DNA from: Deltaproteobacteria bacterium
Lineage (GTDB): Bacteria > Myxococcota_A > UBA796 > GCA-2862545
Direction of reading: 5' to 3'
Length of the DNA stretch: 64,000 nt
NCBI GenBank assembly: GCA_007693595.1
Contig: REDI01000080.1
Span: 62,001-126,000 of the forward strand
How positions within the stretch are numbered: position 1 is the first letter of the stretch; every line of letters starts with the position of its first letter. Shown here piece after piece: positions 6,094 to 19,288 of this stretch. The notes below the pieces were generated by a model. The model saw only the letters and a program-made list of their open reading frames with translations, had not been told where the DNA came from and did no database searches. The position numbers and the translations under genes were made by a program.

Positions 6094-7086
6094 TTGACCG
6101 AAGTCCACCGTCCCCGTGAGCTGGAGGTGCCCGAAGCTGGCGCTGGATTGCGACTCGATCGCTACCTCGCCCGCTGGTTTAGCGCGTGGTCCCGCTCCGC
6201 CCTCTCCCGCGAGATCCGCCAAGGCCTCGTGACGGATCCCGAAGGTCGCCCGCTGCGCGGCTCACACACCGTCCGCGCTGGCGAGAGGATCCTCATCTGG
6301 ATCCCGGGCATCGCGGCGACCACCGCGCCGCCCCCCTTCCCGCCCATCCTTCACGAAGACGACAGGCTCATCGCGGTCAACAAGCCGCCGGGCATGATGT
6401 GCCACCCCGCCGGCTCCCGCTTCGTCTATGCCCTGATCGGGCTAGCCAAGGAGCGCTGGCCGCGAGCCGACGTCGATCTCATCCACAGAATCGACGCCCA
6501 CACCAGCGGGATCGTGCTCCTCTCCAGGGACGTCGAGGCCAACCGCTTCGTCAAGTCCCAGCTCCACGCAGACCACACCCTCAAGATCTACGATGCCATC
6601 GTTCGTGGCCAGCCCTCTTGGACCCACAGAGAGCTTCGACAGCCGATCGGCCCGGCCGGCGGGATCGTTCGCATCCAGATGGCGGCCCGGCAAGACGGCC
6701 TGCCCAGCCTGACCCGAGCTGAGGTCGTGGCGACCCAGTCGAGCCCCCTCGGACCGATCAGCCGTGTTCGTTGTATCATCGAGACGGGTCGAACTCACCA
6801 GATCCGAGTTCATCTCTCGGATGTCGGACACCCCCTGGTGGGTGACCGGCTCTACAGTGGCCGACCGGAGCTCTTTCTGGATGTGCGGGAGCGAGGGCTG
6901 ACCGAGACGCTCATCCGCGAGGCGGGCGCCCCGAGGCACGCGCTGCACGCCTCCGAACTCAAGATCCCGCACCCCGACGGCGGCTGGCTCGAGATCCGTG
7001 CCCCGCTCGCCGCTGACATGCAGCGTTGGTGGGACCGTCCCGACGTCCTACCCCTCGACGTCGCTTCGAACGTGAAGGTCGGCTAG
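6094..7086 (+). CDS. RluA-family pseudouridine synthase
   Basis: Isomerises uridine to pseudouridine in rRNA or tRNA. The 330-residue protein has an N-terminal S4 RNA-binding domain (about residues 12-75, LRLDRYLARWFSAWSRSALS) followed by the catalytic domain. The catalytic motif is HRIDAHTSGIVLLSR, with Asp as the nucleophile; GRTHQIRVHLSDVGHPLVGD is the conserved C-terminal motif. The start is TTG 6094 behind GGAGCAGGGA; no better start was seen. The last 39 bases overlap the end of convergent aspS. The family (RluA/RluC/RluD) is clear, but the target position cannot be read from sequence. Confidence 0.93.
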   Translation: MTEVHRPRELEVPEAGAGLRLDRYLARWFSAWSRSALSREIRQGLVTDPEGRPLRGSHTVRAGERILIWIPGIAATTAPPPFPPILHEDDRLIAVNKPPGMMCHPAGSRFVYALIGLAKERWPRADVDLIHRIDAHTSGIVLLSRDVEANRFVKSQLHADHTLKIYDAIVRGQPSWTHRELRQPIGPAGGIVRIQMAARQDGLPSLTRAEVVATQSSPLGPISRVRCIIETGRTHQIRVHLSDVGHPLVGDRLYSGRPELFLDVRERGLTETLIREAGAPRHALHASELKIPHPDGGWLEIRAPLAADMQRWWDRPDVLPLDVASNVKVG

Positions 7087-8814
7087 CTCCTGCGCCCCGA
7101 CCTGACTGGGCGCGCCGCTCATCAGGTCCTGGGCCGAGGTGGTCTTGGGGAAGGCGATGACGTCGCGGATCGAGGTCGCTCCAGTGAGGATCATCACCAG
7201 CCGATCGAAGCCGAAGGCGAAGCCTCCGTGGGGCGGGGCTCCGTGGGCGAGGGCCTCGAGCAAGAAGCCAAAGCGCGCCTGCTGCTCGTCGGGGCTGATC
7301 CCGAGCGCCTCAAAGACCTTCTGCTGGACCTCTTCGCGGTGAATACGGATGGAGCCCGAGAGCAGCTCAGAGCCATTGCAGACCAGATCGTAGGCGTCCG
7401 AGAGGACCTCGTTCATCCGATCGGTGCCGAGCAGCTCCATGTGGTCAGCGCGGGGGCTCGTGAAGGGGTGGTGCGCCGCGACCCAGCGGCCCTCGTCTTC
7501 GTCGCGCTCAAACATGGGAAAGTCGAGCACCCAGCAGAAGCGGTAGAGCCCCTCGTCGATGAGGTCGCGCTCCTTGGCGACGTGAACTCGCAGGCGACCG
7601 AGTCCAGCGTTGACCCGGTCCCGGGGACCCGCCCCGAGGAGCAAGAGGTCGCCCGGGCCCGCACCCAAGGCATCGAGGAGGGTCGAGGGCTCGTCCGTGG
7701 CCTTGGCGGCAGGACCGCTCAGGCTCCCGTCGGGCTTAACCTTGCCCCAAAGCAACCCCCCGAGCCCATAGTTGCGCACGAAGTCCGTCCAGCCATCGAG
7801 GACCTTCCGGGACGCATCGGCACCTGACGACAAGACGAAGGCCTTGATGGCGCCCCCCTCGTCGAGCGCGCGCCGAAGGGGCGGAAAGCTCGACTGGCCG
7901 AGGTGCTCGGTGAGATCGCTCAGCTCCATGCCAAAGCGGAGGTCCGGGGCGTCTACCCCGAACCGATCCATGGCCTCGTGGTAGCTCATGCGCACGACCT
8001 CGCCGATCCCGTGGCCCAGCACCTCGCGCCAGAGCGCATCCACCACCTGCTCGGCGACCTCGAGCACCTGATCGCGGGAGCAGAACGAGAGCTCGACATC
8101 GATCTGGGTGAACTCCGGCTGACGATCGACCCGGAGGTCCTCATCGCGAAAGCAGCGACAGATCTGGAAGTAGCGGTCCATGCCCGCGACCATGAGGATC
8201 TGCTTGAAGATCTGAGGGCTCTGCGGCAGCGCGTACCAGTGGCCCGGGTGAACCCGAGAGGGCACGAGGTAGTCGCGCGCCCCTTCGGGGGTCGACCGGG
8301 TGAGGATCGGGGTCTCGACCTCGACGAAGCCCAGGGCATCGAGGGCCTGCCGGACCGCCATCGAGCCCCGGTGGCGCACCATGAGGTTCCGCTGTAGGTG
8401 AGGGCGGCGAAGGTCGAGGTAGCGGTGCTTGAGCCGCACTTCTTCGGAGGCTTCCGCCCCTCGCTCGTCGAGGGCGAAGGGGAGGGGCCGAGTGCCCGAC
8501 AAGATCTCGACTTCGGTCGCGATCACCTCGATCTCGCCCGTGGCCATGGCCTCGTTCGCGCGGCCGGCGCGACGCTCTACCCGGCCCTTGACCTGGACCA
8601 CGTACTCCAGCCGCACCGCCTTGGCGACGGTCAGCGCCTCGGGGGGACAGCGATCATCGAGAGTTACCTGCACGAGGCCCGATCGATCCCGAAGGACGAG
8701 GAAGACGACGCCACCCCGGTCCCGAGCGCTCGCCGCCCAGCCCTGAAGGACGACCTCGGCCCCCGCGTGGTCGGCTCGAAGCTCCCCACAGGTGTGTGTA
8801 CGCGCTACCAACAT
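7048..8814 (-). CDS. aspS: Aspartate--tRNA ligase (AspRS), bacterial type
   Basis: Class II aminoacyl-tRNA synthetase charging tRNA-Asp in the cytoplasm. The 588-residue length fits the bacterial form. Visible are the N-terminal OB-fold anticodon domain (GVVFLVLRDRSGLVQVTLDD), class II motif 2 (FQICRCFRDEDLRVDRQPEFTQ split by the usual loop), the bacterial GAD insert (about residues 290-410) and motif 3 (GGFAFGFDRLVMIL). ATG 8814 has GGAGGTCGC upstream. Whether it is discriminating (Asp only) or also charges tRNA-Asn cannot be decided here. A Dnmt2-like methyltransferase, whose eukaryotic relatives modify tRNA-Asp, lies 1.1 kb away. Confidence 0.97.
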   Translation of the reverse strand: MLVARTHTCGELRADHAGAEVVLQGWAASARDRGGVVFLVLRDRSGLVQVTLDDRCPPEALTVAKAVRLEYVVQVKGRVERRAGRANEAMATGEIEVIATEVEILSGTRPLPFALDERGAEASEEVRLKHRYLDLRRPHLQRNLMVRHRGSMAVRQALDALGFVEVETPILTRSTPEGARDYLVPSRVHPGHWYALPQSPQIFKQILMVAGMDRYFQICRCFRDEDLRVDRQPEFTQIDVELSFCSRDQVLEVAEQVVDALWREVLGHGIGEVVRMSYHEAMDRFGVDAPDLRFGMELSDLTEHLGQSSFPPLRRALDEGGAIKAFVLSSGADASRKVLDGWTDFVRNYGLGGLLWGKVKPDGSLSGPAAKATDEPSTLLDALGAGPGDLLLLGAGPRDRVNAGLGRLRVHVAKERDLIDEGLYRFCWVLDFPMFERDEDEGRWVAAHHPFTSPRADHMELLGTDRMNEVLSDAYDLVCNGSELLSGSIRIHREEVQQKVFEALGISPDEQQARFGFLLEALAHGAPPHGGFAFGFDRLVMILTGATSIRDVIAFPKTTSAQDLMSGAPSQVGAQELADLHVRSDVEG

Positions 8815-8903: not shown

Positions 8904-9854
8904 TCAGAAGGTGAGGTAGTAGACCTGGGTATGCTGGCTCGACACCGCCAGCCGATCCCCCGAACGCGACACAGCGAGCTCCACGGCCTCGAAGCCGAGC
9001 TCGTGGGAGTCGACGATCCGACCCTGCGGGCTCACTCGGACGATCTCCGAGCCTTCGACACCTTGGACCATCGCGACGACCTCGGTCGAGGACGCCGCGA
9101 CGTGCGAGATGGGACCACCGAGGGAGAGCGTCCAGGTTAGGCCGTCTTCGAAGAAGCTCAGCTCGCTGCCCTGACCAAAGACGACCGCGCCGTCGGGGGT
9201 GGCCGCGACCACGCTAGGCCCCTCGGCCAGCAGGATCGCGCCCGTCGCACCGACCTCTACCAAGCCCGCGTCCGAGGAGACGTAGGCGCGATCGCCCGCG
9301 ACGGCCAGACCGAGGTCCCCCTCACACGCCCAGTCCTCGGCCTGGACGTCGGCCCGATCGACCAAGACGCCCTGTTCGTACCACCGCACCCTACAGCCCT
9401 CCTCGTCGCGGGTGAGGGCGAGGAAGCCGTCGTCGGAGAGTAGCTTGGCGCGCTCTACCCCTTTGACCAGGTACTTCTCGGCCGCAAAGGGGTTTTGGAC
9501 CGGGATCATGTGCACCAGCGGCACTTGGACCGCGAGCGAGGTCAGCACGAGCCCAGGATCGTCAACAGCATCTTCGATCCTGGCGTTATTCATGGCGATA
9601 TCGAAGAATACATGCCCGGAGTCCGGGTCGATGCCGCAGGCATAGCCCATCATCGAGGCAACGGCATTATCCCCAGCGAAACTGATCCCACGGGCACGAG
9701 GCGTGACGGAAGAGGTGTAGACGGTGCGCTCCGAACTCTCGAAGGCTGGCGAAGGCGCCTCGTAACGCTCCGCCTCGAAGAGCAGCCCCAGGTCGATACA
9801 CCCGTTGAGGGCAGCGGCGCAGAGGGGAACGAGCAATAGACGCCAATGACGCAT
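8904..9854 (-). CDS. Lipoprotein with possible beta-propeller-like repeats
   Basis: A 316-residue protein with a near-perfect ribosome binding site (AAGGAGGT) before ATG 9854. The N-terminus is a lipoprotein signal (MRHWRLLLVPLCAAALNGC, lipobox LNGC), so it is an envelope lipoprotein. The remainder is a run of short beta-type segments such as DRAYVSSDAGLVEVGATG, ELSFFEDGLTWTLSLGG and IVRVSPQGRIVDSHELGF. These resemble blades of a WD40/PQQ-like propeller, but no signature residues allow a family name. It sits upstream of aspS on the same strand and divergent from the Dnmt2-like gene. Function unknown. Confidence 0.75.
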   Translation of the reverse strand: MRHWRLLLVPLCAAALNGCIDLGLLFEAERYEAPSPAFESSERTVYTSSVTPRARGISFAGDNAVASMMGYACGIDPDSGHVFFDIAMNNARIEDAVDDPGLVLTSLAVQVPLVHMIPVQNPFAAEKYLVKGVERAKLLSDDGFLALTRDEEGCRVRWYEQGVLVDRADVQAEDWACEGDLGLAVAGDRAYVSSDAGLVEVGATGAILLAEGPSVVAATPDGAVVFGQGSELSFFEDGLTWTLSLGGPISHVAASSTEVVAMVQGVEGSEIVRVSPQGRIVDSHELGFEAVELAVSRSGDRLAVSSQHTQVYYLTF

Positions 9855-9935: not shown

Positions 9936-9968
9936 ATGAACATGACGCGCGATCACCTATGCCGCTGA
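9936..9968 (+). other. Possible 10-codon leader ORF overlapping the methyltransferase start
   Basis: ATG 9936 opens MNMTRDHLCR and ends at TGA 9966-9968, overlapping the methyltransferase start codon at 9959 in another frame. It follows AAGGGGAG, the only Shine-Dalgarno-like sequence nearby, whereas the methyltransferase ATG has none at normal distance. Translation of the leader could couple to the methyltransferase start. This is an inference from spacing only. Confidence 0.3.
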
Positions 9969-10858
9969 CGGTCCTAGAGCTATTCTCTGGTATTGGTGGT
10001 TTAGCCTTTGCGCTCGGGGATCGCGCACATGTTCTGCTCGCGGTCGATCAGGACGAAGCCGCCCGCGCCACCTACGCCCGACATCACCCGAGTACCCCGC
10101 TGGGCAGGCTCAACCTCCACCATGCCAAGCCCGCCTGGTTTGAAGAGATCCAGGCCGATCTCTGGTGGATGTCACCCCCATGCCAGCCCTACACCATTCG
10201 TGGGCACCAGCGGGACCTCGAAGACCGGCGAAGTCAAGCCTTTCTTCGGGTCTGCGAGGCGATCCGCGTCATCCAACCCCCCGCCATCGCTCTCGAGAAC
10301 GTCCCCTGGTTTGAAGGCTCCCAGGGGGAAGCCCTGCTGCTCGAGATCCTGAACCGCGCCGGCTACGCCGTGGAGCGCGAGATCTTCTGTCCCACCTCCC
10401 TCGGGATCCCCGCGGCGCGGCGCCGATACTACCTCGTCGCCAACCTCGACGGCTTGGTCGATCCAGAACCTGCCGCTCGCACCTCCCCGGTCAAGCTACA
10501 GGACTGGCTCTTGACCCACCCGTCAGCGACCCTCGAGGTCCCATTGGACATCCAAGAACGCTACCGCCACGCGCTGCACATCGTCGACGCCGCAGATCCC
10601 GACGCCGTGGCGGCCTGCTTCACCGGAGCCTACGCACACTCCCCTGTCTACGCCGGCTCCTACTTACGACAGCACGGTCGGCTGCGCTACTTCCATCCCG
10701 TCGAGATCGCCGCGAGCCTGGGCCACCCCACCTTCGATCCCCCCCCCGAGGTCCGGGGGCGGAAGCAGTACAAGCTCGTGGGCAACAGCCTCTCGGTTTA
10801 CGCCGTGCGACGGGTCCTGTCTCGACTGCCTAGCCTCAGTCCTGTGACTTCTTCTTGA
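9959..10858 (+). CDS. Dnmt2-like (cytosine-5) methyltransferase, probable tRNA MTase
   Basis: A 299-residue S-adenosylmethionine-dependent C5-cytosine methyltransferase. Motif I LELFSGIGGLAFAL, motif IV SPPCQPYTIRG with catalytic Cys, motif VI LENVPWFEGS, motif VIII RRRYYLVANL and motif X YKLVGNSLSVYAV are all present. Several features match the Dnmt2/TRDMT1 branch rather than restriction enzymes: SPPCQPxT followed by DLEDRRSQAF, the sequence SPTSLGIP (here CPTSLGIPAARRRYYL), and a CFT signature (CFTGAYAHSPVYAGSYL) before LRYFHPVEIAASLG. No restriction or specificity gene is adjacent and the target-recognition region is short. Known bacterial Dnmt2 (Geobacter) methylates C38 of a tRNA. ATG 9959 lacks a good Shine-Dalgarno. 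It overlaps the convergent giant gene by 23 bases. Confidence 0.85.
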   Translation: MPLTVLELFSGIGGLAFALGDRAHVLLAVDQDEAARATYARHHPSTPLGRLNLHHAKPAWFEEIQADLWWMSPPCQPYTIRGHQRDLEDRRSQAFLRVCEAIRVIQPPAIALENVPWFEGSQGEALLLEILNRAGYAVEREIFCPTSLGIPAARRRYYLVANLDGLVDPEPAARTSPVKLQDWLLTHPSATLEVPLDIQERYRHALHIVDAADPDAVAACFTGAYAHSPVYAGSYLRQHGRLRYFHPVEIAASLGHPTFDPPPEVRGRKQYKLVGNSLSVYAVRRVLSRLPSLSPVTSS

Positions 10859-13800
10859 TCCGAGACATCAGGCCGTCGACGCTCCGGCGCGATCGCGGGA
10901 GGTCGTCTTCGGGGGCCGGACGTCGAACCCGGCCTTGGGACCGATCCTTGAGCCGCTGACGGAGGAGATCCGCCCCGCTCATCTCTTCGCGGGGGCCGGA
11001 GGCCTCGGCTTCGTCTTCCTCGCGGAGGGAGGGCGGACGCAGGGGAGGACGACCGCGTGACTCTGGACGCTCGGGGCGGCCGGGTCGCTCGGGACGGCTG
11101 GGTCGCTCGGCGCTGCCCGACGAGCTGGTGCCTGAGGCCATCCGGGAAGCTCGGCGTTCTCGCAGCCGGCTCCGGAGGTCCTCTCGCTCCTCGCCGTCTT
11201 CCGCGTCGCTGGCTCGACCGCTGCGCTCAGGGCGGCGCAGTCGTCGGTCGGGGGGAGACTCTCGGTCACTGGGGTCGGGGCCCGCGCGGCGCGAACGAGA
11301 GGGAGGCCCATCGTCGCGCCTCGAACTCGGCCGGCGCAGCCGACGATCGGGTCGGGGCGCCTCGTCGGCGCGCTCGGATCGGCGCTCGGCCGACCGGCGC
11401 CCCGAGGGCCGCTCCCCATCCGCGCTCCGTCGAGACGCCGATCCCCGGTCCAGTCGACTCGGCCGCCTCAAACGTCGCTCACCCGTGGACTCCGGCTCAT
11501 CGCGTGAGCCGCGCGCGCCACGGGTTGGGCGCGCAGCCCGCCCCGAGGGCGGCCGAAGCCTTCCCCCCGTGCCTTCGTCACCCGATCTTCGGCCACGGCG
11601 AGGAGGCCTGAGCTGGCGCCCCCCCGTGCTCTCGTCCCCGCTCTCACGATCTGGAGCAGCGCTGCGGCGCGAAGGACGACGTTCCGCGTCTCGGGTGCGC
11701 GAGGGACGCCGGAGACGACGCCCCTCACCCTCATCGGAGGCATCGCCGGAGCGCGCCAGGGAAGCGCTCACGTCGCGACGGGGTGGGCCAGCAGGACGCA
11801 GCCCGCCGCGGGGACGGCGTCGACGCGCGGCCTCGCGCTCGGCACGAGCTCGCTCTTCGCGCTCCTCCGCCTCGCGGATCCGCGCGGCTTCCGCCTCTTG
11901 CTTGCGCCGCTCCTCCGCCTCCTCGACCATGCGCCCGAACTCATCGCGACCATCGGCTAAGGTCTTGTCGAAGTCGTCGAGCGCCGCGATCGCAGCGTCG
12001 GCCCGCCGCTCGGCCTTCTTGAGCACCGCCTCGAGCGCCTCCAGATCTTCGGCCTCGCGGACCGGCCCGCAGGCCTCTTGGGCCCCATGGACCGCATCGG
12101 CCGCTTCACGCAGGGCATCTTCGATGTGATCGAGCATCTCGCCGGTCTCACGTGGGTCGAGTTCGGCTTCATCGACCTCGTCTTCGAAGCGAGAGTAGGC
12201 CTCTCGTGCCTCGCCTAGGCGGTCACGAGCCTGCGTAGCAGCGTCTTCGCGCGCCGCACGAAGCTCTGTGAAGCGGGCCTTATCGGCCACGAGCTTCTTG
12301 ATTTTCGCGTCGAAGGCGTCCCGGGCACGACGGACGTCCGTGGCCGAGGCCACGACCTCGTCCACCGCCGACTGCACCGCGGCAGCGATCGTGTTGGCCG
12401 CTTCGACGCTCCCCGCAGAAGACCCCGGCTCGGCGAGCTCCCGAGCCTTTCGGAATAGGCTCTGCAAGGTGCTGAAGGCCGCCGAGATCTCGGCGAATGC
12501 GTCGGGGATCCCAGGCTCCTCGACGTGCTCCGCCATGAGGGGCTCACACTCCGAGACCCAGCTCTGGGCCTTGGACTCCGCCGCCTGAGCGGTCTCGAGG
12601 GGGGCGCTGACCGCCTGCCGGGCCTCGGACAGGGCGCGCTTGGCGGCCTCCCGCTCCTGTTCCAGCCTGGACTGTGCCTCGGAAACGAGCTGAGGGACCT
12701 GCGCGGCGGCATCGTTCGCCGCCTCGACCGCTCTTCGGGCCGCCTTCAGCATGTGTACCGCGACATCCAGGCTCTCGGCCTCGGCGACCATGGGCACCGC
12801 CGTATGAACCTTTGTCGCAGCCTTCCGAACGCTAGCGATGGCTTCCTCGGCCTCTTGGCGGAGGGAGAGGGTGTGCTCCGCCTTCGCCTCGTCGAGGATC
12901 TCGTCGAGGAAACCCAGCTGCTCACGAGCCATCTTGACGGCGGCGTCCGCTTCTTTGGCCAGATCTGCGACCTGTGACCGAAGATCGGTCAGGGCGGCGG
13001 CCTGCTCGGCCGCGGCGAGCGCCAGGGTACGCGCTTCGGCGAGCTTCGAGAGCGCATCTCGGCTCGCGCTCGTCGATCGCTGCGCCGCCTCACGGGCATC
13101 GAGGGCCGCCGAGAGGACCGCGTCCGCCGCATCCGCCTCGGCGGCTTCGGCGGAAGCCTTCTGCGCCTTCTTCTGCAACCGTCGGAGCTTATCGAGCTGA
13201 GAAGCTGCCTCGTCTCGCAGCGTGTTGCCCTCGCGGGAGCTGGCCTTGCCGAGCAACTCCTCGACCTCGGCGAGGGCCTCTTCGACCGATCGGATGGCCT
13301 TGCTGACCCGCTCGAGGTCTGCCTGCGCCGCCTCGCGAGACTCCGCCCGACGCCGCTCCTCGGCCTCGGCGCGCGCCTTGGCTTCGGCCTTGGCGGCGAC
13401 CTCACCCTCCCGCTCGGCCTCGTCGGCGACGGCGCGCTGATCCAGGGCGATCTTATGCCCTTTGCGCGCGCGTTCCGCCAAGGTCCGCGCCTCTTTGACC
13501 GGGGTCCCTTCCCTGAGGTTGTCCGCCGCCTCCTTGGCTCGCTTTCGGCCGTTCCTGGCCTTGTTTAGCGCCTCCTCGAGACCCTCTTGCCAGCGGGATG
13601 CGTCGGGTCCGGCGGCGCCGTGGCGGGCCAGCACCTTGTCGAGGCGCTCCTGACACGCCTTGACGTGCTTGTAAGCATCGAGCGCTTCGGCGGCCAAGGT
13701 CGAGACCTCATCGCGCAGATCCGCGACCTCCTTCTTGGCGGCGACAGCGCTTTGCACAGCCTTTTTGAGGTCGGAAAGGCCCGCCTCTGCCGCCTTGCGC

Positions 13801-16800
13801 TTGTCGGAGAGGGAGCGAGCCGCCCCTTCACCCACCGGGATCATCTCTGAGGCATCCGCGGAGGTGTTGCACGAGGCGGCGCGGTCCCGAGCGTACTCCG
13901 CCTCGGTGACCGAGGCGTCGAGGTCCTTGTCCGCCTTCTTGATGCGGTCGAGCGCCCCCATCACCGCCTTGTTCTTCGACCAGCCGGCAGACAGCTCGGT
14001 GCCTTCGGTCAAGGCGGCACGAATCGCATCGCGGGAGGTAACGGCTTCGGTCGCCGCCTCAGCGGTGCGCGAGCGCGCCTCGTCGATGGCCTTGGCCTCG
14101 GCGAGGGCGACCTCCTCTGCCTCGTCGATGGCGCGGAGGGCCTCGGGGAGGTCCTCTGAGATCCGTTCCCAGAAAGACGCCGCGGACTCCGCGTAGCCCG
14201 CCGCCTCGTTCGGATCGCCTTGACGGGCGGCCTCGTCGGCGGCGGTCTTGGCTTCGCCGGCCTGGAACTCCGCGATGTCGATGACCTCGTAGGCTTCCTT
14301 GAGCTGCTTCCGAACCGCCGAAATGTCGCTGCGAGACACCGCTTCGGGCAGGCTCTTGTACCGCTTCCACGCCTTATCCACCGCCACACGGCACTGCTCG
14401 GCGTGCTTCTTCGCTGCGCTGGCGTGTTTCTCGAGGGATTCGAGGCGGCGGCGCTCCTTGAGGATCTCGCGGATCTCGTCTTCGGCGAGATCTCGACACC
14501 GCTGACAGGCTTCTTGTGCCCGCTCGCACGAGGTCACCGCATCGACGGAGACCGCCTTGAGCGGTCCCAGATCGGACTCCGCGTCCTCGGGCTCGGTGAG
14601 TCCGCCGAAGCGCTCGTGCCGAGCCTTGAGGACCGAGAGGTGCTCCTTTGCCTGGTCGAGGGAGCTCACCGCCAGCTCTCGGGCCGCGAGGGCGTCGTGG
14701 CCCTCGACCTCGTCGGTGTCTCGGAGGAGGGACTCCACCTCAGCCGCCGCCTTCTCGACGGAGGAGCTGGCGCGCTTGAGGGCCTTGTCTGCCGCATCAC
14801 GGGCTGCGGCCAGCGCTTCGGCCGCCTGCGCTGCCGCCCCTGCCAGCGCCACCGCTCGCTTGCAGAGCGCCTGAACCTGCTCGGCGGCGTCGGTGGCGTC
14901 GCGGGCGGCACGACGGGCCGGGACGAGGGCGTCCCGCGCGTCGGCGCTGATCTTGGCCGCGGTGGCCCGCCCGGACTCCGCCTTGGCCGCCGCTGCCGCA
15001 TCCTGAGCCTGCTTGGCCAAGGGGACCGCCCGCTTGACGAGCCTCCGAGCTTCGTCGTCGTGCCCGTTCTCGACCGCCTTCTTCGCCCGTGTGAGCGCCT
15101 TCTGGGCGCCCTCGGCCGCTTCGGTGGCCGTGCTCGCTTGGCCGGCGACCTCGCCACGCGCAGCGTCGAGCCCCGAGGCTTCGGCCTTGCGTGCGCTCTG
15201 GACGGCCTTCTCGACATCTTCGGCGGCCTTCTTCACCACATCGACCGCCGCCTTCACCGAGCCCAAGCTCGCCTCCGCGTCGCCGACGCTGCTCGCCCTG
15301 CGTACCTGTCCCACCGCATCGTTCGCCTTACTGGCGGCCCCCCGCGCCCGGGCGATCGCCTTGTGGGCCTGATCGGAGGCCGGCTCGACCCCAGGAGCCG
15401 AGAGCTCGCCCGCCGCGATCGCTCGATCGAGCTCCCCGACCAGCTCCTCGGAGGTGTTGAGCTGCCGGGAGGCCGCCTCGGCCGCGCTGTGGGCCTGCTT
15501 GGCGAGCCCAGCGATCTGTTCCTGGGTCCGCTTGACCTCGACCATGCCCTCGCGAAGCTCGTCGAGCCAGCCTCGGGCGGCCTCGATGGCGCTCTCGGCC
15601 TGCTGCTCGGAGCCGGTTACGAGCCCCAGGGTGATGATGGCGTCGCCCGCGTCTTCGTCGAGCTCTACCAGCCCCGCCGAGCGCTTGGCGGAGGCGGTCG
15701 CCTTCTCGACCTTGGACTTGGCGTCGCCGATGCGGCGGACGAGCGAGGCCAACTCGGAGGGCGCCCCGCTGGACTCCTCGGAGGCTCGCTGGCCAATCTG
15801 ATGGACCCTCGAGGCGATCTCGGCGATCCGCGCCAGGATCGCTTGCGCGCGCTTGCGCACATCGTCGAGGGTGGCGTCGGGAGGAAGAGCGGGCAAAGGC
15901 GGCGGTAGGCCCAAGGGATCGTCCGAGACCGGCTCGGGTTCGGGCGTTCTGGCCTTCGTCGACTTCTCCTTGGCCACGGGCTTCGGCCCTTTCTTCGGAG
16001 ACTCTTTGGGCACCTCCTCCGCTGGCTCCGGCGCCGCTTCAGGCTCCACCACTCCGAGCGGGACGAGCACATCGACGGCCAGGGCCTCGTCGAGCACGTC
16101 CTTCAGGCTGGGGCCCTCGGCCTCGCGCAGGCACCGCTTGACCATACGGATGACCTCCTCGGCGTCCCGGTACCGAGCGGTGGGATCCAGCTCGCAGCAG
16201 ATACACAGCAGATCGAGGGCCGCGTCAGGCAGATCGGGGCAGCGCTGCTCGATCCGCGCTGGAGCTTCGCCGGAGAGCAAGGCAGCGATGACCTGCTCGG
16301 CGTCGCCGTCGAAGACCGGCTCACCCGCGATGAACTCCGCCGCGATGAGGGCCAAGGAGTAGAGGTCACTCAGCACATCTTCCGCCTGGAGCTCCAGGCG
16401 CTCGGGGGGCGCGTAGCGCAGGGCGTCGGCAGGGACCGCGTCGGCTCGCTCTTCGAGGAAGTCGATCAGGGGCAGGCAAGGCAGGCCATAACCAAAGACA
16501 TCCGTATATCCTTCGTCGTCGACGAGCAGGCGCCAAGGCGAGAGGTCCCCATGGCCCGACAGGCCGACCTGACGCGCGCGCTCCTGCGCGTCGGCGAGGA
16601 CTTCGGCCCCTTGCAGCATGAGCTCCAGACCCGCTCGCTCCCCCGCTGGGCGGCCCAGTCGCCGAAACGCAAGCAGGATCTCGCGCACGGTGAGCCCCCC
16701 GCGTCGGTCGTAGACGAAGTGCCCCGGCTCAGGCTCCGACAGCAGGGGCAAGAGACCATCGATGGAGGGCTTGCGCAGGAAATCCCGGACCTCGTCGAGG

Positions 16801-16931
16801 CCCGCGCTGAGTTCGGAACGCCCCGCCAAGGCCGGCTGGTACGCCACGGCCACGCACGCGCGCCCCGCGCCCGCTTCAGCGAGCAAGAGGTCGGCGCCGG
16901 GGCCTTGAATGCCTCTGCCGGTATAGTTCAT
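10836..16931 (-). CDS. Giant pseudokinase / alanine-rich coiled-coil / basic-tail protein
   Basis: A 2031-residue protein starting at ATG 16931 behind GAGGAGCC. Residues 1-280 form a degenerate protein-kinase fold. Subdomain VIb reads HGDLSPWRLL (Asn replaced), the DFG region is DVFGYG, the APE motif is intact (RYAPPERL) and DLYSLALIAAEFIAGEPVF is subdomain IX. No glycine loop or beta3 lysine is visible, so it is probably catalytically dead. A Pro/Lys linker (about 300-355) leads into some 1300 residues of Ala/Glu/Lys/Arg-rich helix of coiled-coil or spectrin-like character, with units such as AEGAQKALTRAKKAVENG. From about residue 1690 the tail is basic and disordered, repeating RRLRRPS-type motifs. 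No signal peptide or TM helix was seen. A cytoplasmic scaffold or filament is an inference. Confidence 0.85.
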   Translation of the reverse strand: MNYTGRGIQGPGADLLLAEAGAGRACVAVAYQPALAGRSELSAGLDEVRDFLRKPSIDGLLPLLSEPEPGHFVYDRRGGLTVREILLAFRRLGRPAGERAGLELMLQGAEVLADAQERARQVGLSGHGDLSPWRLLVDDEGYTDVFGYGLPCLPLIDFLEERADAVPADALRYAPPERLELQAEDVLSDLYSLALIAAEFIAGEPVFDGDAEQVIAALLSGEAPARIEQRCPDLPDAALDLLCICCELDPTARYRDAEEVIRMVKRCLREAEGPSLKDVLDEALAVDVLVPLGVVEPEAAPEPAEEVPKESPKKGPKPVAKEKSTKARTPEPEPVSDDPLGLPPPLPALPPDATLDDVRKRAQAILARIAEIASRVHQIGQRASEESSGAPSELASLVRRIGDAKSKVEKATASAKRSAGLVELDEDAGDAIITLGLVTGSEQQAESAIEAARGWLDELREGMVEVKRTQEQIAGLAKQAHSAAEAASRQLNTSEELVGELDRAIAAGELSAPGVEPASDQAHKAIARARGAASKANDAVGQVRRASSVGDAEASLGSVKAAVDVVKKAAEDVEKAVQSARKAEASGLDAARGEVAGQASTATEAAEGAQKALTRAKKAVENGHDDEARRLVKRAVPLAKQAQDAAAAAKAESGRATAAKISADARDALVPARRAARDATDAAEQVQALCKRAVALAGAAAQAAEALAAARDAADKALKRASSSVEKAAAEVESLLRDTDEVEGHDALAARELAVSSLDQAKEHLSVLKARHERFGGLTEPEDAESDLGPLKAVSVDAVTSCERAQEACQRCRDLAEDEIREILKERRRLESLEKHASAAKKHAEQCRVAVDKAWKRYKSLPEAVSRSDISAVRKQLKEAYEVIDIAEFQAGEAKTAADEAARQGDPNEAAGYAESAASFWERISEDLPEALRAIDEAEEVALAEAKAIDEARSRTAEAATEAVTSRDAIRAALTEGTELSAGWSKNKAVMGALDRIKKADKDLDASVTEAEYARDRAASCNTSADASEMIPVGEGAARSLSDKRKAAEAGLSDLKKAVQSAVAAKKEVADLRDEVSTLAAEALDAYKHVKACQERLDKVLARHGAAGPDASRWQEGLEEALNKARNGRKRAKEAADNLREGTPVKEARTLAERARKGHKIALDQRAVADEAEREGEVAAKAEAKARAEAEERRRAESREAAQADLERVSKAIRSVEEALAEVEELLGKASSREGNTLRDEAASQLDKLRRLQKKAQKASAEAAEADAADAVLSAALDAREAAQRSTSASRDALSKLAEARTLALAAAEQAAALTDLRSQVADLAKEADAAVKMAREQLGFLDEILDEAKAEHTLSLRQEAEEAIASVRKAATKVHTAVPMVAEAESLDVAVHMLKAARRAVEAANDAAAQVPQLVSEAQSRLEQEREAAKRALSEARQAVSAPLETAQAAESKAQSWVSECEPLMAEHVEEPGIPDAFAEISAAFSTLQSLFRKARELAEPGSSAGSVEAANTIAAAVQSAVDEVVASATDVRRARDAFDAKIKKLVADKARFTELRAAREDAATQARDRLGEAREAYSRFEDEVDEAELDPRETGEMLDHIEDALREAADAVHGAQEACGPVREAEDLEALEAVLKKAERRADAAIAALDDFDKTLADGRDEFGRMVEEAEERRKQEAEAARIREAEEREERARAEREAARRRRPRGGLRPAGPPRRDVSASLARSGDASDEGEGRRLRRPSRTRDAERRPSRRSAAPDRESGDESTGGRQLRPPRRGRRSGDEGTGGRLRPPSGRAARPTRGARGSRDEPESTGERRLRRPSRLDRGSASRRSADGERPSGRRSAERRSERADEAPRPDRRLRRPSSRRDDGPPSRSRRAGPDPSDRESPPDRRLRRPERSGRASDAEDGEEREDLRSRLRERRASRMASGTSSSGSAERPSRPERPGRPERPESRGRPPLRPPSLREEDEAEASGPREEMSGADLLRQRLKDRSQGRVRRPAPEDDLPRSRRSVDGLMSRIKKKSQD

Positions 16932-17027
16932 GGCTCCTCGAGATCCTCGGCTGGGTGATCGTAGGGCCCAGGGGTCCGACGAGTCCACGCAGCCGTCGGT
17001 GCGCAGGGTATCACGACGCCCGACTCT

Positions 17028-18155
17028 TTACCGCAGCGTCGGCAAGACCGCCGCGATCGGGTGGAGCACCGAGGCGCCTAGCCATCGCGCGCGCGCTGGA
17101 GACCATCCCACGGCCTCATCCGGCGCGTCGGCGTTGTCCTTAAAGGGCATCTCTAGCGTCATGGCCAGCGCATCGAAGCGCTCAGCCACCTGGCTCGTGC
17201 ACATCGAGAGGTTGGCTTGGCCCGGCGGATCAGGAGGATAACCCTGGGTCCGCTGGAAGTCCGGGTTCGCGATCTGATAGGCCGCACAGAAGCGCTCGGT
17301 GAGCGCCGCGAGCCGTTCGGTCCAGCTCGGGATCCCCTCCGCGCCCGCCACGAAGTTGTAAGGCAGCTCCTCGTCGCCGTGGACGTCGAGGCAGAGATCC
17401 ACCCCCGCGCGATCCATGGCCTCGCGTACTTGAAGGACCTCAGGGCTGGTCGCCGAGGTCGGCGCGTCCCAGGCGCGGTTGAGGTTGGTACCGACAGCGT
17501 TGGTCCGGAGATGGCCCCGGACCGAGCCATCGGGGTTCATGTTGGGCACGACGTAGAAGACCGCCCGATCGAGAAGCGAGCGGGCCAGGGCGCAGGAAGG
17601 ATCGACCATGCGCTCCAAGAAGCCCTCGACGAACCACTCCGCCATGCTCTCTCCGGGGTGCTGCCTGGCGATCATCCAGACGACGCGACGGTCGGGGCCC
17701 GGCTCCCCGAGCACCATGGCGTCGAGGTCGCGGCCGTCGAGAGTGAGTCCGAGCACCCGGTGCCGACAGCGTGGATGCCCGCCGATCCGGGCGAGCAGAT
17801 CGTGATGACGCTCCTGCGAATAAGGGGCGAAATACGCGAAGTAGAGCACGTCACGCGCCGGGGTGACCGTGAAGCTCAGGATGCCGTCGCGGTAGGCGGT
17901 GTCCAGCCGGCTCCAGCGCTCCCGATCTTCGCTCACGCAGACCCGATAGCCGTGCCACGCCTTCGGATAGCTCACGCCAGCAGCATTGGTCAGCCGGAAG
18001 GTGCACTGTACCCCTCGCGCTCCGACGACCCTGAAGTAAAACCACTGATAGTGCGCCCCGCCCACATCAGGGCGGATCGCCAGCCGAACGTCGCTCGGAT
18101 CGCTGGCGTCAAGGACTTGGATATTGCCCGCATCGAAGGCTGCTGAGATGTGCAT
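17028..18155 (-). CDS. M14-family zinc carboxypeptidase, cytosolic (CCP/Nna1-like) type
   Basis: A 375-residue zinc metallopeptidase predicted to remove C-terminal residues. The N-terminal beta domain (about residues 1-120: YQWFYFRVVG, YPKAWHGYRVCVSEDRERW, YFAYFAPYSQERH) is characteristic of the cytosolic carboxypeptidase subgroup. The zinc ligands are in ARQHPGESMAEWF (His and Glu) and LDVHGDEELPY (His). The catalytic Glu is in LTLEMPFKDN, and NLNRAWD supplies substrate-binding residues. ATG 18155 is chosen because AGAGGAG precedes it. No signal peptide, so it should be cytoplasmic. Eukaryotic relatives shorten polyglutamate tails; the bacterial substrate is unknown. Divergent from the hydrolase operon at 18272. 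Confidence 0.9.
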   Translation of the reverse strand: MHISAAFDAGNIQVLDASDPSDVRLAIRPDVGGAHYQWFYFRVVGARGVQCTFRLTNAAGVSYPKAWHGYRVCVSEDRERWSRLDTAYRDGILSFTVTPARDVLYFAYFAPYSQERHHDLLARIGGHPRCRHRVLGLTLDGRDLDAMVLGEPGPDRRVVWMIARQHPGESMAEWFVEGFLERMVDPSCALARSLLDRAVFYVVPNMNPDGSVRGHLRTNAVGTNLNRAWDAPTSATSPEVLQVREAMDRAGVDLCLDVHGDEELPYNFVAGAEGIPSWTERLAALTERFCAAYQIANPDFQRTQGYPPDPPGQANLSMCTSQVAERFDALAMTLEMPFKDNADAPDEAVGWSPARARWLGASVLHPIAAVLPTLR

Positions 18156-18212
18156 CGGCTCTCCTCTGTCTGAGCCGGGCCTATCGCTGACGAAGGATCC
18201 TGACATCCCCCC

Positions 18213-18240
18213 TTGACGCCTGTGTAGAAGTGTCTATCTT
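18213..18240 (+). promoter_or_regulatory. Sigma70-type promoter of the 18.3-20.9 kb operon
   Basis: TTGACG (18213-18218) and TATCTT (18235-18240) are separated by 16 bases, close to the sigma70 consensus. The expected transcription start near 18247 falls just before ATG 18272, and so favours that start over the in-frame GTG at 18230, which lies inside the promoter. Confidence 0.6.
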
Positions 18241-18271
18241 CCTTCGGTGCAATGTACGGGAGGGCAACGAG

Positions 18272-19288
18272 ATGCACTGGATGGACCAGGTGCAGGTGTG
18301 GGCGCTCAAGAAGCGTCATTGTTTCCGCGACGGCTGGGGGGACCTCTCCTTCGCCGAGGCGCTGGCCGATCACATCCGCGATCCCGGTCCCGCCGCCGTC
18401 GTCCGGCCCGACCTCGGCCCTCCTACCCGAGTGCTCCAGGCCGACCTTCGTATCGGAACCTTCCCGAGCCCCTCCCCCCACCTACCCGAAGAGAGTCGGA
18501 CCGCGCGGTTCTGGTGGCTCCACCCCGCCGACCAGCCCGTTCGGGGGGCCGCGCTGGCCTTCGCCTCATGGGGCGACGAGGGCCCGACCCTGCGGGGGCG
18601 GCTGCTCGGCAGCCTCGTGCGCGAAGGCGTGTCGATCGTCATCCTCGAGAACCCCTTCTACGGGGTCCGTCGACGTCAGGGTCAGCGAGCCGGAGGGCTG
18701 CGCACCGTGCGCGACTTCATGGCCATGCAAGCTGCCGCCTTCGACGAGGGGCGCGCCCTACTCGGCTGGATGAGTCGCGAGATCCAAGCCCCCACTGCCA
18801 CGGTCGGCTTTAGCATGGGGGGCCACCTGGCCGGGGCCCTAGCCTGCGTGAGCGCCGGGCCGACGCCGGTCGCGATCCTCGCGCCTCCTCGCTGCCCTTC
18901 CCAGCCCTTCACCGACGGGCCCCTCGCAGCCTGCATCGACTGGGATGCCCTCGGCGGACCGCGGCCCGAGGTGCGCGACCGCTGGCGCGCCATCATGGAT
19001 CTCTTCGACCTCCTAGACTTCCCCGCTCCGCGCGAGCCCAGCCTGGCACGCGTGATCGGGTGCCGCACCGACGGCCTCGTCCCCGTGGAGCACGCCGAGC
19101 ACATCTCCGCACGCTGGTCCGCGCCCCTCGAGTGGGTCCCGGTGGGCCACGTCGGCGCTGCGCTGACCCACGGGAAGGCCCTGCGCCGAGCCGTCCGGGA
19201 GGTCCTCGGGATCCCCTCGCGCAGCAGCCGTCCGCTCCTCACCACTATGGCGTCCCAGACCCTGGAGCGCCTGCGCCCCTCGGGCTGA
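18272..19288 (+). CDS. Alpha/beta hydrolase, ABHD18/DUF2048-like
   Basis: A 338-residue hydrolase. ATG 18272 follows GAGGGCAACGAG and lies downstream of the predicted promoter. The nucleophile elbow is GFSMGGHLAGAL (Ser nucleophile). ENPFYGVRRRQGQ before it and the late Asp (GCRTDGLVP) and His (PVGHVGAALTHG) complete a plausible catalytic triad. The combination of ENPFYG with GFSMGGHLA resembles the ABHD18 (DUF2048) family, whose chemistry is poorly defined. No signal peptide or lipobox. It is the first gene of a co-directional set with three membrane-protein genes, suggesting action on a lipid or membrane-derived ester. The hydrolase fold is firm; the subfamily is tentative. Confidence 0.82.
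   Translation: MHWMDQVQVWALKKRHCFRDGWGDLSFAEALADHIRDPGPAAVVRPDLGPPTRVLQADLRIGTFPSPSPHLPEESRTARFWWLHPADQPVRGAALAFASWGDEGPTLRGRLLGSLVREGVSIVILENPFYGVRRRQGQRAGGLRTVRDFMAMQAAAFDEGRALLGWMSREIQAPTATVGFSMGGHLAGALACVSAGPTPVAILAPPRCPSQPFTDGPLAACIDWDALGGPRPEVRDRWRAIMDLFDLLDFPAPREPSLARVIGCRTDGLVPVEHAEHISARWSAPLEWVPVGHVGAALTHGKALRRAVREVLGIPSRSSRPLLTTMASQTLERLRPSG

Follow-up and report, generated by a model that had tools for sequence, protein, structure and literature searches.

In animals, plants and fungi, Dnmt2 modifies a single base of a tRNA. A CFT motif has been published as diagnostic of Dnmt2 (PMC3227630), and the proline that follows the catalytic Cys-Gln (P83 in S. pombe) is conserved in Dnmt2 but absent from Dnmt1 and Dnmt3 (PMC5995894). 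DNMT2s of several kingdoms of eukaryotes are reported to share, without exception, the Asp of the Phi-D-I-V motif in the acidic pocket (PMC3380923), and K295 of the human protein belongs to a tRNA-contact patch (PMC5995894). The methylated cytosine of the known Dnmt2 substrates lies in the context CAm5CGCG (PMC6409601). DNMT6 is a second RNA-associated family of eukaryotes, and the donors of the eukaryotic DNMT families could not be named in a 2025 survey (PMC12344493). Among bacteria, one Dnmt2 has been studied, that of Geobacter sulfurreducens (GsDnmt2), which according to the title of a report cited in PMC6409601 methylates tRNA-Glu. In 2011, bacterial Dnmt2 was known from Geobacter alone (PMC3227630).

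The gene at positions 9959..10858 (forward strand) of the window, that is, of the whole stretch of 64,000 nt that was analyzed, starts with ATG and encodes a protein of 299 aa. An earlier note on this DNA had correctly described the reading frame as a C5-methyltransferase, and all the catalytic motifs were found: ELFSGIGG, SPPC75QP, E113NV, R154xR156 and, close to the C-terminus, GNSLSV. In the alignment, R91 is also present. Sequence and alignment place the predicted catalytic cysteine in motif IV (SPPCQPYT) as C75, with its codon at 10181..10183 (forward strand). The two features that had been taken as typical of Dnmt2 are both there, the CFT at residues 220-222 (codons 10616..10624, forward strand, by alignment and the motif definition of PMC3227630) and the SPTSLGIP-like stretch in the form CPTSLGIP (residues 144-151). 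The GC contents of the three codon positions (0.70/0.48/0.77) are like those of the neighboring genes, and the comparison with the closest homologue yielded dN 0.30 and dS 1.23 (dN/dS about 0.25). Thus, the reading frame is a real, conserved gene under purifying selection. A genome of the same genus encodes a homologue that is 62% identical. The only other C5-methyltransferase in the same genome as the window gene is 29% identical over residues 5-176 and scores like an ordinary DNA methyltransferase.

As an alternative, the protein could be a DNA C5-methyltransferase of the HhaI/Dcm type, either an orphan or linked to restriction, and have no more than the catalytic domain in common with Dnmt2. 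This explanation has the domain databases on its side: Pfam and NCBIfam give only a general C5-methyltransferase domain (the single Pfam domain, C-5 cytosine methylase, covers residues 4-167 with 100.9 bits, and the NCBIfam dcm superfamily scores 81, under the cut-off of 100.65), and PADLOC models of type II methyltransferases match the N-terminal half with up to 99.6 bits. However, the rankings of profiles and folds favor Dnmt2. The best PDB matches by sequence are five Dnmt2 chains (human 127.8 bits, Spodoptera 100.6, S. pombe 99.1, Entamoeba 80.4), whereas the best M.HhaI chain scores 55.6 bits. A profile built from 33 homologues gave 252.6 to 212.5 bits for Dnmt2s, 141.7 for HhaI and at most 52 for DNMT1. 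An AlphaFold2 model based on the alignment of this profile (mean pLDDT 95.3, pTM 0.92) retrieved Dnmt2 chains as all nine best Foldseek targets (E 7e-27 to 2e-24, TMq 0.81-0.88), with HhaI ranking after them (E 3e-18). The presence of CFT and of P77, the proline following the catalytic Cys-Gln, likewise argues against a DNA methyltransferase, as do the identities of only about 23-25% over the full length with phage and plasmid DNA methyltransferases. The statement that no restriction gene is in sight also stands, insofar as Pfam recognized none in the genes predicted for roughly the first 30 kb of the window.

The placement among the C5-methyltransferases was analyzed by maximum likelihood for 41 bacterial homologues, including the window protein, four eukaryotic Dnmt2s, DNA methyltransferases drawn from genomes of relatives and from viral contigs, and HhaI, the sequence of which was verified letter for letter. 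The eukaryotic rows were taken from profile alignments, those of human and Spodoptera without a short insert; the sampling comprised three or four eukaryotic sequences, all of them Dnmt2s. The bacterial and eukaryotic Dnmt2s were split from the DNA methyltransferases with 100/100 support, and forcing the window protein among the latter was rejected (AU p = 0.0069). Therefore, we regard a DNA methyltransferase as quite improbable. Sequence, profile, fold model and phylogeny jointly assign the window protein to the Dnmt2 lineage and not to the DNA cytosine methyltransferases, so that the Dnmt2 assignment proposed earlier is borne out, also by the phylogenetic comparison with DNA methyltransferases that had been suggested as a check.

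The relationship between the bacterial and the eukaryotic branches bears on a second alternative, namely that the bacterial genes were acquired from eukaryotes by horizontal transfer. Such a transfer was proposed in 2011 for Geobacter, then the sole known bacterial carrier (PMC3227630). In our trees, the eukaryotic Dnmt2s form a single group (support 100/99). A quick tree placed them inside the bacterial clade with a support of 97, but the careful trees differ: the bacterial clade is sister to the eukaryotic Dnmt2s (84/90), and omission of the long-branched rows gave a bacterial clade supported by 97/93. Nesting of the eukaryotic Dnmt2s beside the bacterial family f16 was not rejected (p = 0.18). 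In contrast, a tree in which all bacteria group with the two animal sequences within the eukaryotes, one form expected from a eukaryote-to-bacterium transfer, was rejected at p = 0.032 and p = 0.020 on the basis of three or four eukaryotic sequences. With both the sister clades and this rejection against it, a eukaryotic origin appears very unlikely to us. The trees are suggestive of bacterial Dnmt2s that are sister to, and not derived from within, the eukaryotic Dnmt2s tested (three or four sequences).

The distribution of the gene was analyzed across the phylum. At E <= 1e-20, Dnmt2 homologues were present in 45 of 379 sampled genomes and in 27 of 236 genera. The view that bacterial Dnmt2 proteins are uncommon thus needs to be qualified: most of the sampled genomes indeed lack the gene, but about 12% carry it. 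In the tree, the families f4 and f16 each hold together for the most part, pointing to descent that was mainly vertical and to frequent losses of the gene. Phage, plasmid and viral collections yielded no Dnmt2-type gene, but only general DNA methyltransferases with about 21-34% identity, and a phage or plasmid origin was therefore rejected. We tentatively consider that the bacterial Dnmt2 lineage of this phylum may be ancient, inherited for the most part vertically, and the closest known relative of the Dnmt2 carried by the last eukaryotic common ancestor; the tRNA enzyme with its CFT site would then have been bacterial before its uptake by eukaryotes, possibly from this or a related group. 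The survey also revealed a distinct C5-methyltransferase-like group in which SPPCQPYT is replaced by WASPPCQPGS or WASPPCQAWS (L123, L125, L133, L135, L137, L144 and L145); in the tree, L123, L125, L133 and L137 form one clade with a support of 100, far from Dnmt2.

The residues of the Dnmt2 site are in part retained and in part altered. Of the 41 bacterial homologues, 27 have the exact CFT, while TFT occurs in six, VFT in three and other variants in five. P77 is a proline in all 41 homologues and an alanine in HhaI. The Phi-D-I-V motif is absent from the window protein, which reads L206-H207-I208-V209 at this position, with His207 replacing the Asp; across the alignment, this Asp is missing from most of the bacterial clade. 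Therefore, we describe the proteins as a bacterial sister lineage and not as DNMT2s of the eukaryotic type. The equivalent of human Lys295 is Gly223 in the window protein and Gly or Ser in the bacterial clade. The lack of both the Asp and the K295 equivalent in the alignment counts against the Dnmt2-type methylation of tRNA that we favor below.

The tRNAs of the same genome, gathered by an Rfam search and ARAGORN, comprise 43 distinct sequences. C38 is present in tRNA-Asp(GUC), Glu(CUC), Gln(CUG), His(GUG), Val(CAC), Val(GAC) and two tRNAs with the anticodon CAU. The combination of C32, A37 and C38 occurs in Asp, Glu(CUC) and Val(GAC), and only Asp among these three has C40 as well. The tRNA-Asp(GUC) loop is CUGUCAC, followed by G39-C40, which resembles the CAm5CGCG context. 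The loop of tRNA-Glu(CUC) is CUCUCAC, whereas tRNA-Glu(UUC) has UUUUCAU (C11:96286-96314), with U32 and U38; its U38 excludes this tRNA as a C38 substrate. Taken together, the set of C38 tRNAs, the C40 of tRNA-Asp and the U38 of tRNA-Glu(UUC) make tRNA-Asp(GUC) the first candidate, probably a substrate, and tRNA-Glu(CUC) the second, possibly one. For tRNA-Asp we go no further than probably because the Geobacter enzyme is reported to methylate tRNA-Glu. Co-variation between the gene and its potential substrates was rejected, because C38 in the tRNA-Glu isoacceptors is independent of gene presence: relatives that carry the Dnmt2 gene and relatives that lack it have alike retained C38 of tRNA-Glu(CUC) (loop CUCUCAC), and throughout the order tRNA-Glu(UUC) has the loop UUUUCAU with U32 and U38, the U38 again irrespective of the gene, whereas family f16 has the usual loop CUUUCAC with C38. 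A search for the GluQRS family did not discriminate either, as all 61 genomes searched gave matches, ten of them above the cut-off. As the genome encodes tgt, Q34-dependent stimulation, as in S. pombe, the Dnmt2 of which is stimulated by Q (PMC5995894), would be possible. Two or three full-length paralogues of tgt (queuine tRNA-ribosyltransferase), instead of one, were found in most of the genomes searched.

The lost residues and the range of C38 tRNAs raise the question of the target. The enzyme could belong to the Dnmt2 lineage and yet have a changed target, be it another tRNA (Val, His, Gln or Met), another RNA, or RNA and DNA together. Such a change would fit the fact that most of the bacterial clade has lost both the Phi-D-I-V Asp and the equivalent of K295, as well as the C38 in tRNAs of the same genome beyond Asp and Glu(CUC) and the tRNA of the Geobacter enzyme, which, going by the title of a report cited in PMC6409601, already differs from those of the eukaryotic enzymes. 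However, neither the active-site loop nor the CFT region has been lost, the small domain keeps its fold, and we consider a changed target unlikely. Instead, in all likelihood the gene encodes a bacterial enzyme of the Dnmt2 lineage, most likely with SAM-dependent m5C formation at C38 of one or a few tRNAs as its activity. The analysis shows the family placement, the catalytic residues, the predicted fold, the conservation and which tRNAs bear C38; that RNA and not DNA is the substrate, which tRNA it would be and what role the enzyme would have in the cell are inferred. With SAM as the methyl donor, the predicted enzyme would methylate cytosine 38 of the anticodon loop at C5 by a chemistry of the DNA-methyltransferase type, in which the target base would be flipped into the active site, C75 would attack C6, and E113 would protonate N3. 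As most relatives lack the gene, we would expect its function to be nonessential and to bring a slight improvement in charging, in decoding or in protection against cleavage of the anticodon.

The proximity of aspS had been interpreted as a possible sign of a shared substrate. The gene in question, at 7048-8814 (reverse strand), is a real aspS that encodes a bacterial-type aspartate--tRNA ligase (TIGR00459 equivalog, 706.5 bits versus a cut-off of 373.85), and the distance of about 1.1 kb noted earlier is accurate, the two start codons being 1145 bp apart. A functional unit of both genes acting on tRNA-Asp would gain from this distance and from the mouse AspRS, which is described as preferring C38-methylated tRNA-Asp (PMC4860778). 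However, a gene for a hypothetical protein of 316 aa (8904-9854, reverse strand) lies between them, divergent from the Dnmt2 gene, so that, given also the distance between the start codons, there is no shared operon. The search for conserved linkage in other genomes was carried out and revealed none: in all 33 other Dnmt2-bearing genomes in which aspS was found, it lies elsewhere, on another contig in all but the single-contig genome G087, where 849 kb separate the two genes. The same-genus relative G298 is among the unlinked genomes; near its Dnmt2 gene it keeps a homologue of the 316-aa protein (31% identity) and a stretch like the giant reading frame downstream of the window gene, but its aspS is on contigs other than that of Dnmt2. 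We therefore judge the adjacency to be coincidental and private to this genome within the sample examined, with the neighbor not being part of the system; a functional unit with aspS has, in our estimate, hardly any probability.

Besides G298, no other gene of the window neighborhood was found beside Dnmt2 elsewhere, except in L089, where the repetitive giant reading frame has a weak match. All-against-all clustering of the reading frames around the 41 loci gave no partner common to all families, and many of the clusters consisted of spurious GC-rich reading frames; a conserved gene neighborhood was thus rejected. The giant reading frame itself (10836-16988, reverse strand; 2050 aa) shares 23 bp with the 3' end of the Dnmt2 gene and has a weak kinase-like match at the N-terminus and a long, repetitive body rich in Ala and Glu. 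Further downstream, a cytosolic-carboxypeptidase-like gene (Pepdidase_M14_N and M14; 17028-18206, reverse strand) adjoins an ABHD18-like hydrolase gene (18230-19288, forward strand). On the other side, an RluA-family pseudouridine synthase gene (6094-7086, forward strand) runs toward aspS, and the 3' ends of these two convergent genes overlap by 39 bp.

As a finding, the likely sister clade of the eukaryotic Dnmt2s outweighs the single gene, and the aspS neighborhood carries no message. A diverse bacterial clade that is represented in a sizeable minority of the sampled genomes of one phylum makes the questions of transfer and donor testable, and its enzymes, which are compact (about 290-300 aa) and lack two substrate-site residues that are conserved in the eukaryotic proteins, would help in asking what makes a Dnmt2 choose tRNA over DNA.

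In comparison with known systems, M.HhaI and the type II DNA C5-methyltransferases have the catalytic domain and the common C5-methyltransferase motifs in common with the window protein, but the identity to M.HhaI is 22.7%, and HhaI lacks CFT, has an Ala for P77 and falls into a separate clade (100/100). GsDnmt2, compared here by description, is likewise a bacterial protein of the Dnmt2 type (PMC3227630); it reportedly acts on tRNA-Glu, of which only the CUC and not the UUC isoacceptor has C38 here. The eukaryotic Dnmt2/TRDMT1 proteins compared (human 1G55/9HGM, S. pombe Pmt1 6FDF, Entamoeba EhMeth 3QV2 and Spodoptera 4H0N) are 28-36% identical to the window protein over the aligned columns. 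The latter is shorter (299 aa) and has His207 for the Phi-D-I-V Asp and Gly223 for human K295, and after CFT the bacterial clade has the consensus SAYGxSxVxAGSYLR instead of the eukaryotic sequence. The fold, the catalytic residues, SPPCQP with the Dnmt2 proline, CFTxxY and the GNS region are the same in both, and both are on the branch that is separated from the DNA methyltransferases with 100/100 support.
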